In this document: piece by piece, positions 2,945 through 7,289 of the stretch
How the letters are laid out: every line of letters begins with the position of its first letter
How positions within the stretch are numbered: the first letter of the stretch is position 1
Source of the DNA: a bacterium
GTDB taxonomy: Bacteria; SM23-31; JAUVVT01
Reading direction: 5' to 3'
Assembly: GCA_030616165.1 (NCBI GenBank)
Contig: JAUWXV010000190.1
Span: 1 to 7,289, forward strand
DNA: 7,289 nt
Translations under genes and position numbers: made by a program
The notes under the pieces: model-generated
Databases searched by the model: none
What the model was told of the DNA's origin: nothing
What the model saw: the letters and a program-made list of their open reading frames with translations, nothing else

Positions 2945-3925
2945 ATGACATATAATTCAGAAATTGTTAAGAAAAAGGTATGGGCTGTAGCGGGGGGAAA
3001 GGGTGGAACCGGAAAGTCGGTTATTTCTGCAAATCTTGGGATTGCACTTGCAAGCCTTGGGTATAGAGTTATTCTTGTTGATGCAGACCTCGGTGCACCA
3101 AATCTACATACCTGTCTTAATATAAAAAGGCCCTCTTTTACCCTTAATGATTTTTTAACCAATAGGGTTCCTGATTTAAAATCTATACTCCTCGACACCC
3201 CGAATAATAACCTTAAATTAATTTCCGGAGGGATAGAACTTCTTGGTCTTGCAAACATCCATTATCAGAGGAAAATGAAACTAATTAGACATCTCAATAA
3301 ACTTGGCGCAGAATTTATAATAGTTGACCTCGGGGGAGGAACCACTTACAATACTTTAGATTTTTTTAATCTTTCGAATGAAGGGATACTTGTTTGTAAT
3401 CCCGAACCAAACGCGAGAGTCGATGCATATTCTTTTCTAAAAAATGTGGTATGGAGAAAACTCTCAGCATTTACCAGAAACAACGGGGTTTTAAGAGAGG
3501 TAATAAACCGAACCAATTATTTACAGGAAAACAGAATATTCGAAGTATCAAAACTTCTTGAATTGGTTAAAAATGAGGATGAAAATTGTTTCCGGATGAT
3601 GGGAAAAATTTTGAATGATTTTAAACCGAAACTGATTATGAATAAGGTAAGAAGAAGAAGTCAAATTGACGAAGGGAAACAACTTGTTATACTGACAGAA
3701 GAATTTCTTAAAGTTAAACTGGAATACTTAGGATATATTGAAATTGACCAGCATGTCATCGATTCTACAGAAAGAATGATGCCATTTGTTCTTGAATATC
3801 CAAAGTGTGAAGCAAGTAAAAATATCTTTCAGATTATTAAAAATCTGATAGGCGGCAAGGAAGAAGAAAAATCTTTCCGACATTTCAAAAAAGATATGAG
3901 AATCGAAGCCCGTCAGTGGAAGTAA
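2945..3925 (+). CDS. MinD/ParA-family P-loop ATPase, FlhG/YlxH-like
   Basis: The 326-residue product opens with a deviant Walker A motif, KGGTGKS (residues 19-25), with the signature lysine K19 and the P-loop lysine K24. The VDADLGAPNLHT segment (45-56) is the switch I region typical of the MinD/FlhG branch. The Walker B strand is FIIVDLGGG (124-132) with D128. Family members bind ATP, dimerise and set the position or number of cellular structures, often on the membrane or nucleoid. The C-terminus (residues about 290-326) is basic and charged (GGKEEEKSFRHFKKDM) and does not look like the classic MinD amphipathic anchor. No flagellar gene, minC/minE or parB is in the window, so flagellar or division roles cannot be assigned. 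The ATG at 2945 is used because it places the P-loop at the usual distance; no Shine-Dalgarno is present. The gap to the next gene is 104 bases with no terminator seen. Family assignment is firm; function is open. Confidence 0.9.
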   Translation: MTYNSEIVKKKVWAVAGGKGGTGKSVISANLGIALASLGYRVILVDADLGAPNLHTCLNIKRPSFTLNDFLTNRVPDLKSILLDTPNNNLKLISGGIELLGLANIHYQRKMKLIRHLNKLGAEFIIVDLGGGTTYNTLDFFNLSNEGILVCNPEPNARVDAYSFLKNVVWRKLSAFTRNNGVLREVINRTNYLQENRIFEVSKLLELVKNEDENCFRMMGKILNDFKPKLIMNKVRRRSQIDEGKQLVILTEEFLKVKLEYLGYIEIDQHVIDSTERMMPFVLEYPKCEASKNIFQIIKNLIGGKEEEKSFRHFKKDMRIEARQWK

Positions 3926-4029: not shown

Positions 4030-4365
4030 ATGAAAAATAGAAGTGATAAAAAGGTTTATGATGGTTCTGAAAATAAATTGTGGAGTCATCCAGGCGGTAA
4101 ATTAAGAGAACTTGGAGCAGAAAATCTTACTGATGCGGAGCTGCTTTCTATTTTGATTTCACCAGGTATGAAGGGCAGACCCGCGGAAAAAATAGCGGAA
4201 GAAATTCTTGCAAAGTTTAGCTCTTTTAAAGGAATGGCAAATCAGCCTTTTGAGAAATTTATGAAAATAAAGGGACTTGCTGATGTGAAAATTATAAAAA
4301 TTGCAGCCTCATTTGAAATTGCAAGAAGAATTGTTAATGAAGTTGTAAAAGAATATGAGAAGTAA
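4030..4365 (+). CDS. Stand-alone RadC N-terminal (UPF0758) domain protein
   Basis: The 111-residue product aligns by eye with the first half of the RadC encoded at 2177: GGKLRELGAENLTDAELLSIL (22-42) matches the RadC KLMNLGADRLSDAELLAIL block, and FMKIKGLADVKIIKIAASFEIARRI (76-100) matches the helix-hairpin-helix segment and the following helix. It then ends with a charged tail (VNEVVKEYEK). The JAMM/MPN domain is absent, and the DNA downstream is already occupied by the next gene, so this is not a simple frameshift of a longer radC. The HhH turn has lost its second glycine (GLADVK for GIGSTK). The stop codon overlaps the next gene by 11 nt, which implies coupled translation with the restriction-modification enzyme. 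It may bind DNA or the enzyme, for example as a regulator or assembly partner; that is inference. The ATG at 4030 has no Shine-Dalgarno. Confidence 0.8.
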   Translation: MKNRSDKKVYDGSENKLWSHPGGKLRELGAENLTDAELLSILISPGMKGRPAEKIAEEILAKFSSFKGMANQPFEKFMKIKGLADVKIIKIAASFEIARRIVNEVVKEYEK

Positions 4366-7289
4366 AATTAAGTCGAAAAATAAAAAAATTCCCAGCCCCT
4401 TTGAGAAAACAGCACACAAAACAGAGCGGTCTGCAGTGGCTGTATTAATGCATTGGATGAGAGAAATCATTGAGAAAAAAAATATCGACGTGGGAATGCC
4501 GGATGTTGAAACAATCGGCGCTGACAGAAAAATGCCAGATACAGTTATTTATGAATCACAACGAAGTAAAAAAATTCTGTGTGTATTAGAGGCAAAGCCA
4601 CCATATTTTGATGTTTTTAATGAAAAAGAGTTAAAAGAACCAGCAAGAGAAAAGGCAACTGAAAGAAAAGCAAAATACTTTGCTCTTACAAATTTTAAAA
4701 GCCTTTTGTGGTTTAATACAAAAAAAGTAAATGCTTTAAAGCCCGAAGAAGAGCAAATCGTTGGAAAATACTCTCTTTCAGAAATTGAAAACCTTGATGA
4801 TATTGAACAAACAAGGTATAAAGAACCTACTAAAAAGGCTCTTGAAGATTTTTTAACCAAACTATATAAAGTCCACTCAGGTAAAGAACCTGAGCCAAAG
4901 CAGGCAATTGATGAGTTTTTAATATATAGACTTCAGGAAAAAATACGTGTTTTGTCTAATTATTATAAGGATATTATTTATAATCAGTGTCACAAAGATT
5001 CATCATTTGCAAAAAAACTCACAAACTGGTTTGTTGAACAAAATTGGAGTTTTACATGGAGTTCAAAAGACTTTGATATTGCCTCAAGACAAACTGCATA
5101 CCTTCTTGTAAATAAGATTCTATTTTATAATGTACTACAGGCAAAAAGACCACAGGAGCTTGACCCTATTGATATTCCTGAAAGTCGCACAAAAGGTTCA
5201 CTTCTTAAAACTAATCTCCAGGGTTATTTTGAATATGTTTTGAAAAATATAGATTATGAGACAATATATACAACAGACTTTATTGATATTCTTGCTTTCC
5301 CAAATGTTGAAGAGGTTGTAGAAGAAATAAAAGAACTAACAAATATTTTCAAAAGATATGATTTTTCAACATTAGGATATGATATTTTAGGTAGAATTTT
5401 TGAACGGCTTATTCCACCCGGTGAACGACATAATTTAGGTCAGTATTTTACAAATCCTGATGTTGTTGATATAATTTTAAAATTCTGCCTGCATCATGAG
5501 GATGAAAAACTTCTTGACCCTGCATGCGGTGCCGGAACTTTCCTTGTCAGGTCTTATCAGCATAAGAAAATTATGAACCTGCGTAAAAGTCACGAAGAAA
5601 TATTAAAGACAATTTGGGGAAATGACATTGCCAAATTCCCAGCCCACCTCGCAACGATTAACCTTGCAATTAATGATTTAAGCGTAGATGAAAATTATCC
5701 AAATATCATCGATGAAGATTTTTTTGAACTTCTTGTGGGAGACGACGGTTTTGACCCGATTAAGTGGAGAAAGAGAAGAGCAAAAACACTTAGAAAAAAT
5801 GAAAGAGAAATAACTTATCCCAGATGGTTTGATGCCGTTGTCGGAAATCCACCATATACGAGGCAGGAGGAGATAAGCAAAATTTCACCTGAATATGCTG
5901 AATATAAAGAAGACCTTATTAAAAAGGCGCTTTGTTTTAACGATGAGAAATTGGCAGATATAAGTAAACGTGCCGGCATACATTCATATTTCTTTGTTCA
6001 CGGGACAAAGTTTCTAAAAGATGGTGGATATTTTGGTTTCATAGTTTCTAACTCATGGCTAGATGTAGATTACGGAAAAGGACTTCAGGAGTTTTTCCTT
6101 AAAAGTTATAAAATAATTACCATTATAGAATCGAAAGTTGAGCGCTGGTTCGAAGAGGCAGATATCAATACCTGTATAATTATACTTCAGAAATGTAGCG
6201 GAGATTCACGAATTGCCAAAAAAGAACGTGAAGAAAATCTTGTTCGGTTTGTTTATCTCAAAAAGCCACTGCGAAACTTTATACCGCCGGCAAAAGACAT
6301 ATGGGAAAAACAGGTTGAAAGATTAAATGAAATTGATAAACTCAAAAAGACAATTCTTGCTCACAATGATTTTTATGAGAATGAGGATTTGAGAATCTTT
6401 CCAAAAAGTCAGAAGGAACTCTGGAGTGAAGGTTACGACCCAGAAAATAAAAAATATGTTGGTGCAAAATGGGGAAAATATATAAGAGCACCAGAGATAT
6501 TTTTCAAGATTTTGAAAAGGGGTAAAGGTAAATTTGTTCCTTTAAAAGAAATTGCAGATGTTCGACGCGGATTTACTACTGGTGTTAATGAGTTTTTTTA
6601 TCTGACAGAAGAAGAAATAAAGCGTAGAAAAATTGAGAAAGAATTCTGGATGCATAAGGATAAGAAAGGGAATTGGATTCCTAATTATTTAATTTGGAGT
6701 GGACGAGAAGCAAAAAGAATTATAATAAAACCTAAAGATTTAAAGTATCGTGTTATTTTAGTTAATAAATATAAAAATAAACTCAAAAACACTAAAATTT
6801 TAAAATATATAGAAGAAGGTGAGAGTAAAAAATTAAATGAAAGACCAACATGTATAAGCAGAAAGAATTGGTACGAATTAGATAATATTAAAACTGGTGA
6901 TTTTCTTTATTTTTATCAAATGGGAGATAGATTTTTAATTCTAAAAAATAAATATAGATTTTATGCTGACTGTAATCTTTTCAATATTTATATAAAAAAG
7001 AAAATTGATAAAAATTTAATAGGAAGTATTTTTAACAATACACTTTTTAGACTTATATTAGAAATTCAAGGAAGACAACTAATAGGAGCACTAACTGTCA
7101 TAAAAATACAGGTTTATGAGTTATTACAGAGTTTATTAATTAATCCAAAAACTTTATATAGAAAAGATAAGAAGAAATTATCTTCCATATTTAAAAAAAT
7201 AGTTTCTAGGGATATAAAGTCAATTTTTGAAGAACTCGGCGCTTATTCCCCCAAAGAAGTCTCTCTTGATAAAGTCAAGCCCGACCGCA
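4355..7289 (+). CDS. Type IIG-like restriction-modification enzyme (nuclease, N6-adenine methyltransferase and target-recognition region in one chain), 3' end outside the window
   Basis: The frame is open from ATG 4355 to the window edge (978 codons). Residues 1-about 130 resemble a PD-(D/E)xK nuclease: MPD with D62, then ILCVLEAK with E79 and K81. A helical linker follows (about 150-340). The methyltransferase core has motif I DPACGAGTFL (388-397) and motif IV NPPY (498-501), as in gamma-class N6-adenine methylases of the Eco57I/TaqI type; ERLIPPGERHNLGQYFTNPD before motif I is typical. From about residue 727 (FVPLKEIADVRRGFTTGVNEFF) a TaqI-type specificity region begins. Such enzymes methylate adenine in a short target and cut unmodified DNA nearby, usually invading phage DNA. 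The fusion means no separate hsdR or hsdS would be needed. The start overlaps the RadC-N gene by 11 nt, and no Shine-Dalgarno is evident, so translation is probably coupled. Residues about 789-950 are much more AT-rich than the rest. No internal stop or frameshift was found. PglX-like or type I subunits are less likely because of the nuclease-like N-terminus. Confidence 0.87.
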   Translation, partial: MRSKIKSKNKKIPSPFEKTAHKTERSAVAVLMHWMREIIEKKNIDVGMPDVETIGADRKMPDTVIYESQRSKKILCVLEAKPPYFDVFNEKELKEPAREKATERKAKYFALTNFKSLLWFNTKKVNALKPEEEQIVGKYSLSEIENLDDIEQTRYKEPTKKALEDFLTKLYKVHSGKEPEPKQAIDEFLIYRLQEKIRVLSNYYKDIIYNQCHKDSSFAKKLTNWFVEQNWSFTWSSKDFDIASRQTAYLLVNKILFYNVLQAKRPQELDPIDIPESRTKGSLLKTNLQGYFEYVLKNIDYETIYTTDFIDILAFPNVEEVVEEIKELTNIFKRYDFSTLGYDILGRIFERLIPPGERHNLGQYFTNPDVVDIILKFCLHHEDEKLLDPACGAGTFLVRSYQHKKIMNLRKSHEEILKTIWGNDIAKFPAHLATINLAINDLSVDENYPNIIDEDFFELLVGDDGFDPIKWRKRRAKTLRKNEREITYPRWFDAVVGNPPYTRQEEISKISPEYAEYKEDLIKKALCFNDEKLADISKRAGIHSYFFVHGTKFLKDGGYFGFIVSNSWLDVDYGKGLQEFFLKSYKIITIIESKVERWFEEADINTCIIILQKCSGDSRIAKKEREENLVRFVYLKKPLRNFIPPAKDIWEKQVERLNEIDKLKKTILAHNDFYENEDLRIFPKSQKELWSEGYDPENKKYVGAKWGKYIRAPEIFFKILKRGKGKFVPLKEIADVRRGFTTGVNEFFYLTEEEIKRRKIEKEFWMHKDKKGNWIPNYLIWSGREAKRIIIKPKDLKYRVILVNKYKNKLKNTKILKYIEEGESKKLNERPTCISRKNWYELDNIKTGDFLYFYQMGDRFLILKNKYRFYADCNLFNIYIKKKIDKNLIGSIFNNTLFRLILEIQGRQLIGALTVIKIQVYELLQSLLINPKTLYRKDKKKLSSIFKKIVSRDIKSIFEELGAYSPKEVSLDKVKPDR
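6720..7204 (+). other. AT-rich target-recognition segment inside the restriction-modification gene
   Basis: A hand count of 6721-7200 gives 97 G or C in 480 bases (about 20%), against 91 in 240 (about 38%) for 5461-5700 in the same gene and about 32% for 6541-6720. GC recovers to about 38% in 7201-7260, where the protein reads FEELGAYSPKEVSLDKV. The reading frame is kept throughout. The segment covers residues about 789-950, the part expected to read the DNA target. This is the pattern left when a specificity module has been exchanged by recombination between conserved flanks. The composition is seen; the exchange is inferred. Confidence 0.6.

Follow-up and report, generated by a model that had tools for sequence, protein, structure and literature searches.

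Type IIG restriction-modification (R-M) enzymes such as BpuSI, Eco57I and DrdV combine in one chain an N6-adenine methyltransferase with a PD-(D/E)XK-like nuclease at the N terminus, and AdoMet-stimulated cleavage at a distance from the recognition site is a further trait of the type. Single-chain R-M enzymes are usually held to be complete alone. The multi-subunit type IIG relatives BcgI and BsaXI have a separate S subunit, several hundred residues long, that recognises the target. The C (controller) proteins of type II R-M systems are helix-turn-helix regulators, encoded by a small upstream gene that often overlaps the nuclease gene. At the locus described here, the gene upstream of a type IIG-like enzyme encodes a protein of another kind, related to the N-terminal, helix-hairpin-helix (HhH) half of RadC. 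A sequence-only reading of this DNA knew of no named system built from these two parts, and the open-licence papers on RadC/UPF0758 with restriction-modification, type IIG enzymes or defence islands likewise do not describe the pair, although their silence does not prove novelty. We lean, with modest confidence, towards the view that the small protein is an HhH accessory subunit that assembles with single-chain R-M enzymes, probably docking at a basic tail at the enzyme N terminus.

The window (the whole stretch of DNA analysed) is an entire 7289-base contig from a 343-contig assembly. The small gene lies on the forward strand at 4030-4365, begins with ATG and encodes 111 amino acids with an (HhH)2-like domain and the hallmark W18-x-H-P-G-G-K-L25. 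As first proposed, the protein keeps only the UPF0758/HhH half of RadC: its sole Pfam match is the UPF0758 N-terminal family (PF20582, E 3.9e-15), the C-terminal JAB/JAMM domain of RadC (PF04002) is absent with the reading frame ending after 111 residues, and NCBIfam RadC models reach 67.5 of 180 bits, far under the cut-off. No PADLOC family matched the small protein, and a sequence search for related solved structures found none. The AlphaFold model (pLDDT 89) is HhH-like and resembles the HhH domains of XPF, Hef, DisA and UvrC (Z 6-7, weak if taken alone); there is no helix-turn-helix domain by Pfam match or predicted fold. Of 79 small proteins, 38 retain the second hairpin glycine, compared with 23 of 25 RadCs, and this relaxation weakens the case for a DNA-binding role.

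The enzyme gene starts with ATG at 4355, on the same strand, and the stop codon of the small gene ends at 4365, so that the 11-nt overlap (4355-4365) reported earlier is exact. The enzyme frame (4355-7288, 978 residues) is still open at the contig end, 7289; full-length relatives have about 1030-1190 residues, that is, about 50-200 beyond the window copy. Its first approximately 20 residues, MRSKIKSKNKKIPSPF (4355-4420), form a conserved basic tail that is predicted to be disordered. A putative PD-(D/E)XK nuclease domain follows (4421-4900), in which D62, E79 and K81 are invariant in 22 class 1 enzymes (the window type) and would be catalytic; strands are predicted beside them at residues 63-66 and 74-80. 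The N6-adenine methyltransferase core (5500-6200) has motifs I and IV, DPACGAGTF at residue 388 and GNPPY at 497, and the C-terminal half (6520-7288), cut short by the contig end, is a probable target recognition region with a weak, below-cut-off match to M_Eco57I_C. Domain matches are to N6_Mtase (E 3.6e-21), Eco57I (E 1.1e-21) and the PADLOC model REase_MTase_IIG (E 1.4e-46), and the predicted fold (mean pLDDT 77) is closest to the type IIG enzyme BpuSI (E 1.3e-22). By sequence and predicted fold, with D...ExK in the same chain as the methyltransferase, the window enzyme is a type IIG-like nuclease-methyltransferase whose nuclease is a predicted one.

Just upstream of the pair, on the same strand, are a full-length radC gene (2177-2896, TTG start) and a gene for a MinD/ParA-like ATPase (2945-3925). 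The remainder of the window contains two copies (248-395 and 1905-2052, 97% identical) of a MITE-like element of about 140 bp with inverted ends of about 20-34 bp; near-full copies number about 16 in the window's genome (83-100% identity), alongside many partial ones. Between the two window copies lies an outer-membrane-protein-like frame (754-1806) with an in-frame TAA at codon 89, a probable pseudogene.

The presence of a full-length radC 1.1 kb upstream of the small gene raises the question of whether small genes of this type are decaying radC fragments that lie beside R-M genes by chance. This explanation can be set aside almost entirely. The small proteins form one clade with invariant residues of its own: the hallmark WxHPGGKL stands where RadC has RPREKL, and its W, H, G and G are nearly invariant in the small family and not seen in RadC. 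In a tree with 25 RadC N-domains, a single branch separates the small family from them (SH-aLRT 87), though inner branching is weakly resolved with only 88 columns. The median dN/dS of the small gene is 0.07 over 145 pairs, indicating strong purifying selection, and no RadC JAB domain occurs anywhere in 971 kb of related loci. These results had already refuted the decay reading, and the small gene, judged by its sequence evolution, is a real protein gene in a clade separate from RadC; the outcome that would have undone the original proposal, small genes that are mainly radC debris in unrelated places, did not occur. The JAB search also led us to regard the neighbouring radC as incidental, since radC was not found near the pair at other related loci across the same 971 kb. 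Collections of plasmids, phages and viral contigs yielded no member of the small family, only full-length RadC-like matches at about 30-42% identity, or nothing.

A scan for the small family over 84,980 species genomes gave at least 105 relatives. We kept 80 loci; six of these end too soon past the small gene for its neighbour to be judged, leaving 74 informative loci. An R-M gene lies downstream of the small gene in 66 of the 74. The kept loci span at least 15 named phyla, with Chloroflexota the commonest, and the genes upstream of the small gene are not conserved. Three classes of enzyme account for most of the informative loci. Class 1 is found at 33 loci plus two with broken copies. Class 2 accounts for 22 loci; its enzymes, about 1080 residues long, are likewise of the Eco57I type. 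Class 3, at six loci, consists of N6/N4 methyltransferases of about 845 residues, in which a C-terminal D...ExE motif may represent a nuclease. Single cases involve a 1351-residue IIG/DrmMI-like enzyme, a fused HSDR_N_2-N6_Mtase and a type I HsdR. The nuclease halves of classes 1 and 2 are unrelated, and their methyltransferase cores are homologous. The small proteins of three class 3 loci (L142, L145, L147) have a tandem duplicated HhH domain (186-217 residues). At another locus (G265 C1:707245-709696; L165, L174), an IS21-like istA/istB insertion splits a class 1 enzyme gene and the small gene is intact.

Where small gene and enzyme gene are directly adjacent they overlap in 41 of 50 pairs, a count that assumes starts at the first possible start codon. 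The genes found between the two at other loci encode MNT-HEPN, HicAB, PIN, DUF4258, PHD-like or other proteins; toxin-antitoxin or related genes stand directly behind the small gene, mostly before the enzyme, at L077, L078, L080, L081, L085, L089 and L102.

An unbiased count was obtained from 386 genomes picked solely by kinship to the window, five of which are the same assemblies as in the kept-locus set. These contain 12 RadC_N-only copies, 11 of them directly before such an R-M enzyme, and one extra match that proved to be full-length RadC. The association of the small gene with R-M enzymes is thus far beyond chance and well supported. Seen from the enzyme side, all six class 1 enzymes scoring at least 1600 bits and all four class 2 enzymes scoring at least 1419 bits in the 386 genomes have the small gene, and it is absent from relatives below 1000 bits. 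A class 1 relative at 820 bits, found in a further search, has neither small gene nor tail (two further phyla that were searched contributed few enzymes), and the small gene is absent beside the class 3 relative in genome G314; a class 3 copy at a contig edge (G091 C6, L200) was left out of this judgement. Close homologues of the enzyme therefore carry the small gene and remoter ones do not, which is not the general lack of it among homologues that would have counted against a functional unit.

Distances between small proteins correlate with those between their enzymes, with a Mantel r of 0.61 for 29 class 1 pairs and 0.82 for 18 class 2 pairs, values reached in none of 2000 permutations. This co-divergence shows a shared history of the two genes, as joint inheritance would produce, and is not proof of binding. 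Taken with the constant gene order, the usual overlap and the many phyla, it upholds the suggestion that the genes form a functional unit, which the tabulation of neighbours across genomes was meant to examine. The pairing stands, and the picture of a unit of just two parts was too narrow in scope, because at least three R-M classes plus rarer ones are involved and about one copy of the small gene in ten is alone.

A feature new here is an N-terminal tail common to class 1 and class 2 enzymes, with the motif K-[LI]-x-x-K-x-x-R-[IV]-[PS]. When a 12-column tail profile trained on class 1 only was run against a background of 407 N-termini, all 18 class 2 enzymes with the small gene fell inside the top 1%. 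Eight relatives without the small gene (seven class 2, one class 1) scored at background level, and a further two class 1 relatives that lack the gene were judged by eye to lack the tail as well, so that the tail is missing from all ten. In a profile-profile comparison of the first 260 residues, the tail is the sole stretch over which the two classes align (E 5e-5); with the tail removed these regions share nothing (probability 0.2%). Codons within the tail vary freely, arguing that the constraint acts on the protein, and the tail is retained where toxin-antitoxin genes separate small gene and enzyme (L077, L078, L080, L081, L085), arguing that it is not a by-product of gene overlap. It is predicted to be disordered (pLDDT 32-36). 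The correlation has limits: no such tail was found when looked for in class 3 enzymes, four class 1 enzymes with the small gene (L110, L121, L123, L126) are missing the basic part of the tail, and gains or losses of the small gene on the enzyme tree number only about three, which means that the correlation rests on few independent events. In addition, the small protein is basic, as is the tail, which speaks against docking by simple electrostatics.

Solo copies, with no R-M gene beside the small gene, occur at about eight of the 74 informative loci and in genome G062. Four of them (L103, L106, L112, L118) occupy a fixed place between a PLP-enzyme gene and fmt/def, and this group is under purifying selection (dN/dS about 0.1) with no R-M gene nearby. 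The complete chromosomes behind two solo copies (L083 and L106) hold no convincing Eco57I-type R-M enzyme. Solo copies would be either partners of other enzymes or a protein with a function of its own. The small gene could be a housekeeping gene that serves as a leader or landing site, behind which R-M or toxin-antitoxin genes have repeatedly been placed for expression or by recombination. The fixed chromosomal place of the solo group, the toxin-antitoxin modules between small gene and enzyme in several loci and the unrelated enzymes downstream would all suit such a site; co-divergence with the enzyme, a small gene in all close enzyme relatives and an enzyme tail would not be expected of it, and the unconserved upstream genes speak against it as well. 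We consider this explanation improbable.

Assembly with the enzyme as a subunit is the reading that we prefer because it draws together the pairing, the presence of the small gene in all close relatives, co-divergence, the shared tail and the HhH-like fold. Solo copies, the class 1 enzymes that lack the basic part of the tail, the tail-less class 3, the charge of the two partners, the relaxed hairpin glycine and the small number of gain or loss events count against it. Among the roles suggested at the outset (specificity, assembly and control), the shared tail favours physical assembly, as far as sequence can tell. The sequence of events may be as follows. An HhH domain split off from the RadC family would have become a dedicated subunit of single-chain R-M enzymes. 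The small protein would be made just before the enzyme through translational coupling and would join it during coupled translation, probably on the disordered basic tail beside the nuclease domain. There its most likely contribution would be an extra surface, for DNA contact or for oligomerisation, by which cleavage and methylation are licensed or positioned. What we infer in this scheme is that the two proteins bind, that the tail is the docking site, that translation is coupled and that activity is affected; the scheme predicts that the tail peptide binds the small protein. More tentatively, the small protein might be a portable adaptor: one HhH subunit and one short docking tail would have been combined with two or more unrelated kinds of nuclease, as a common assembly or control device for single-chain R-M enzymes across bacterial phyla.

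The same tail could instead be the target of restraint. A single-chain enzyme cannot delay its nuclease through delayed transcription, and so the first-translated small protein might bind the nascent tail and keep the nuclease switched off until the host genome has been methylated, acting at the protein level somewhat as an antitoxin or C protein would. The upstream, overlapping position of the small gene and the location of the tail directly before the nuclease domain agree with such a timing factor, and solo copies persist as orphan antitoxins do. The HhH fold, however, hints at DNA contact rather than inhibition, and type II C proteins are helix-turn-helix proteins, which the small protein is not; we judge restraint to be unlikely, if worth keeping in view, as on sequence alone it would look the same as the subunit model. 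A role in repair or fork protection is rather doubtful. Here the small protein would act on DNA ends or forks arising from self-cut host DNA, much as Vsr accompanies m5C methyltransferases, and its RadC family origin and HhH neighbours in repair proteins, together with its suitability for several unrelated enzymes and solo copies, are in keeping with this. Repair would leave the shared enzyme tail unexplained, and the small protein has no catalytic domain and a relaxed hairpin glycine.

If the small protein is indeed an accessory subunit, a conserved partner common to unrelated single-chain enzymes departs from the usual picture of their self-sufficiency. It might account for the failure of some predicted IIG enzymes to work when expressed on their own, and could bear on how a nuclease fused to its own methyltransferase avoids killing a new host. 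It also suggests what the N-terminal half of RadC, whose family is of disputed function, could do.

Each of the described systems shares part of this arrangement. The small protein belongs with the RadC family (UPF0758) through PF20582 and is about 33% identical to the N-domain of the window's own RadC; it differs from RadC in having no JAB/JAMM domain, in its WxHPGGKL in place of RPREKL and in its separate clade. In gene position it recalls the C proteins of type II R-M systems, whereas its domain is helix-hairpin-helix rather than helix-turn-helix. As in BcgI and BsaXI, a second gene adjoins that for a fused nuclease-methyltransferase, but the small protein, at about 100 residues, is far from their S subunits and has no recognition domain. 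The enzyme itself resembles BpuSI, Eco57I and DrdV, and to that type IIG plan the window system adds a RadC_N-only gene in front and a conserved, disordered basic tail at the enzyme's N terminus.
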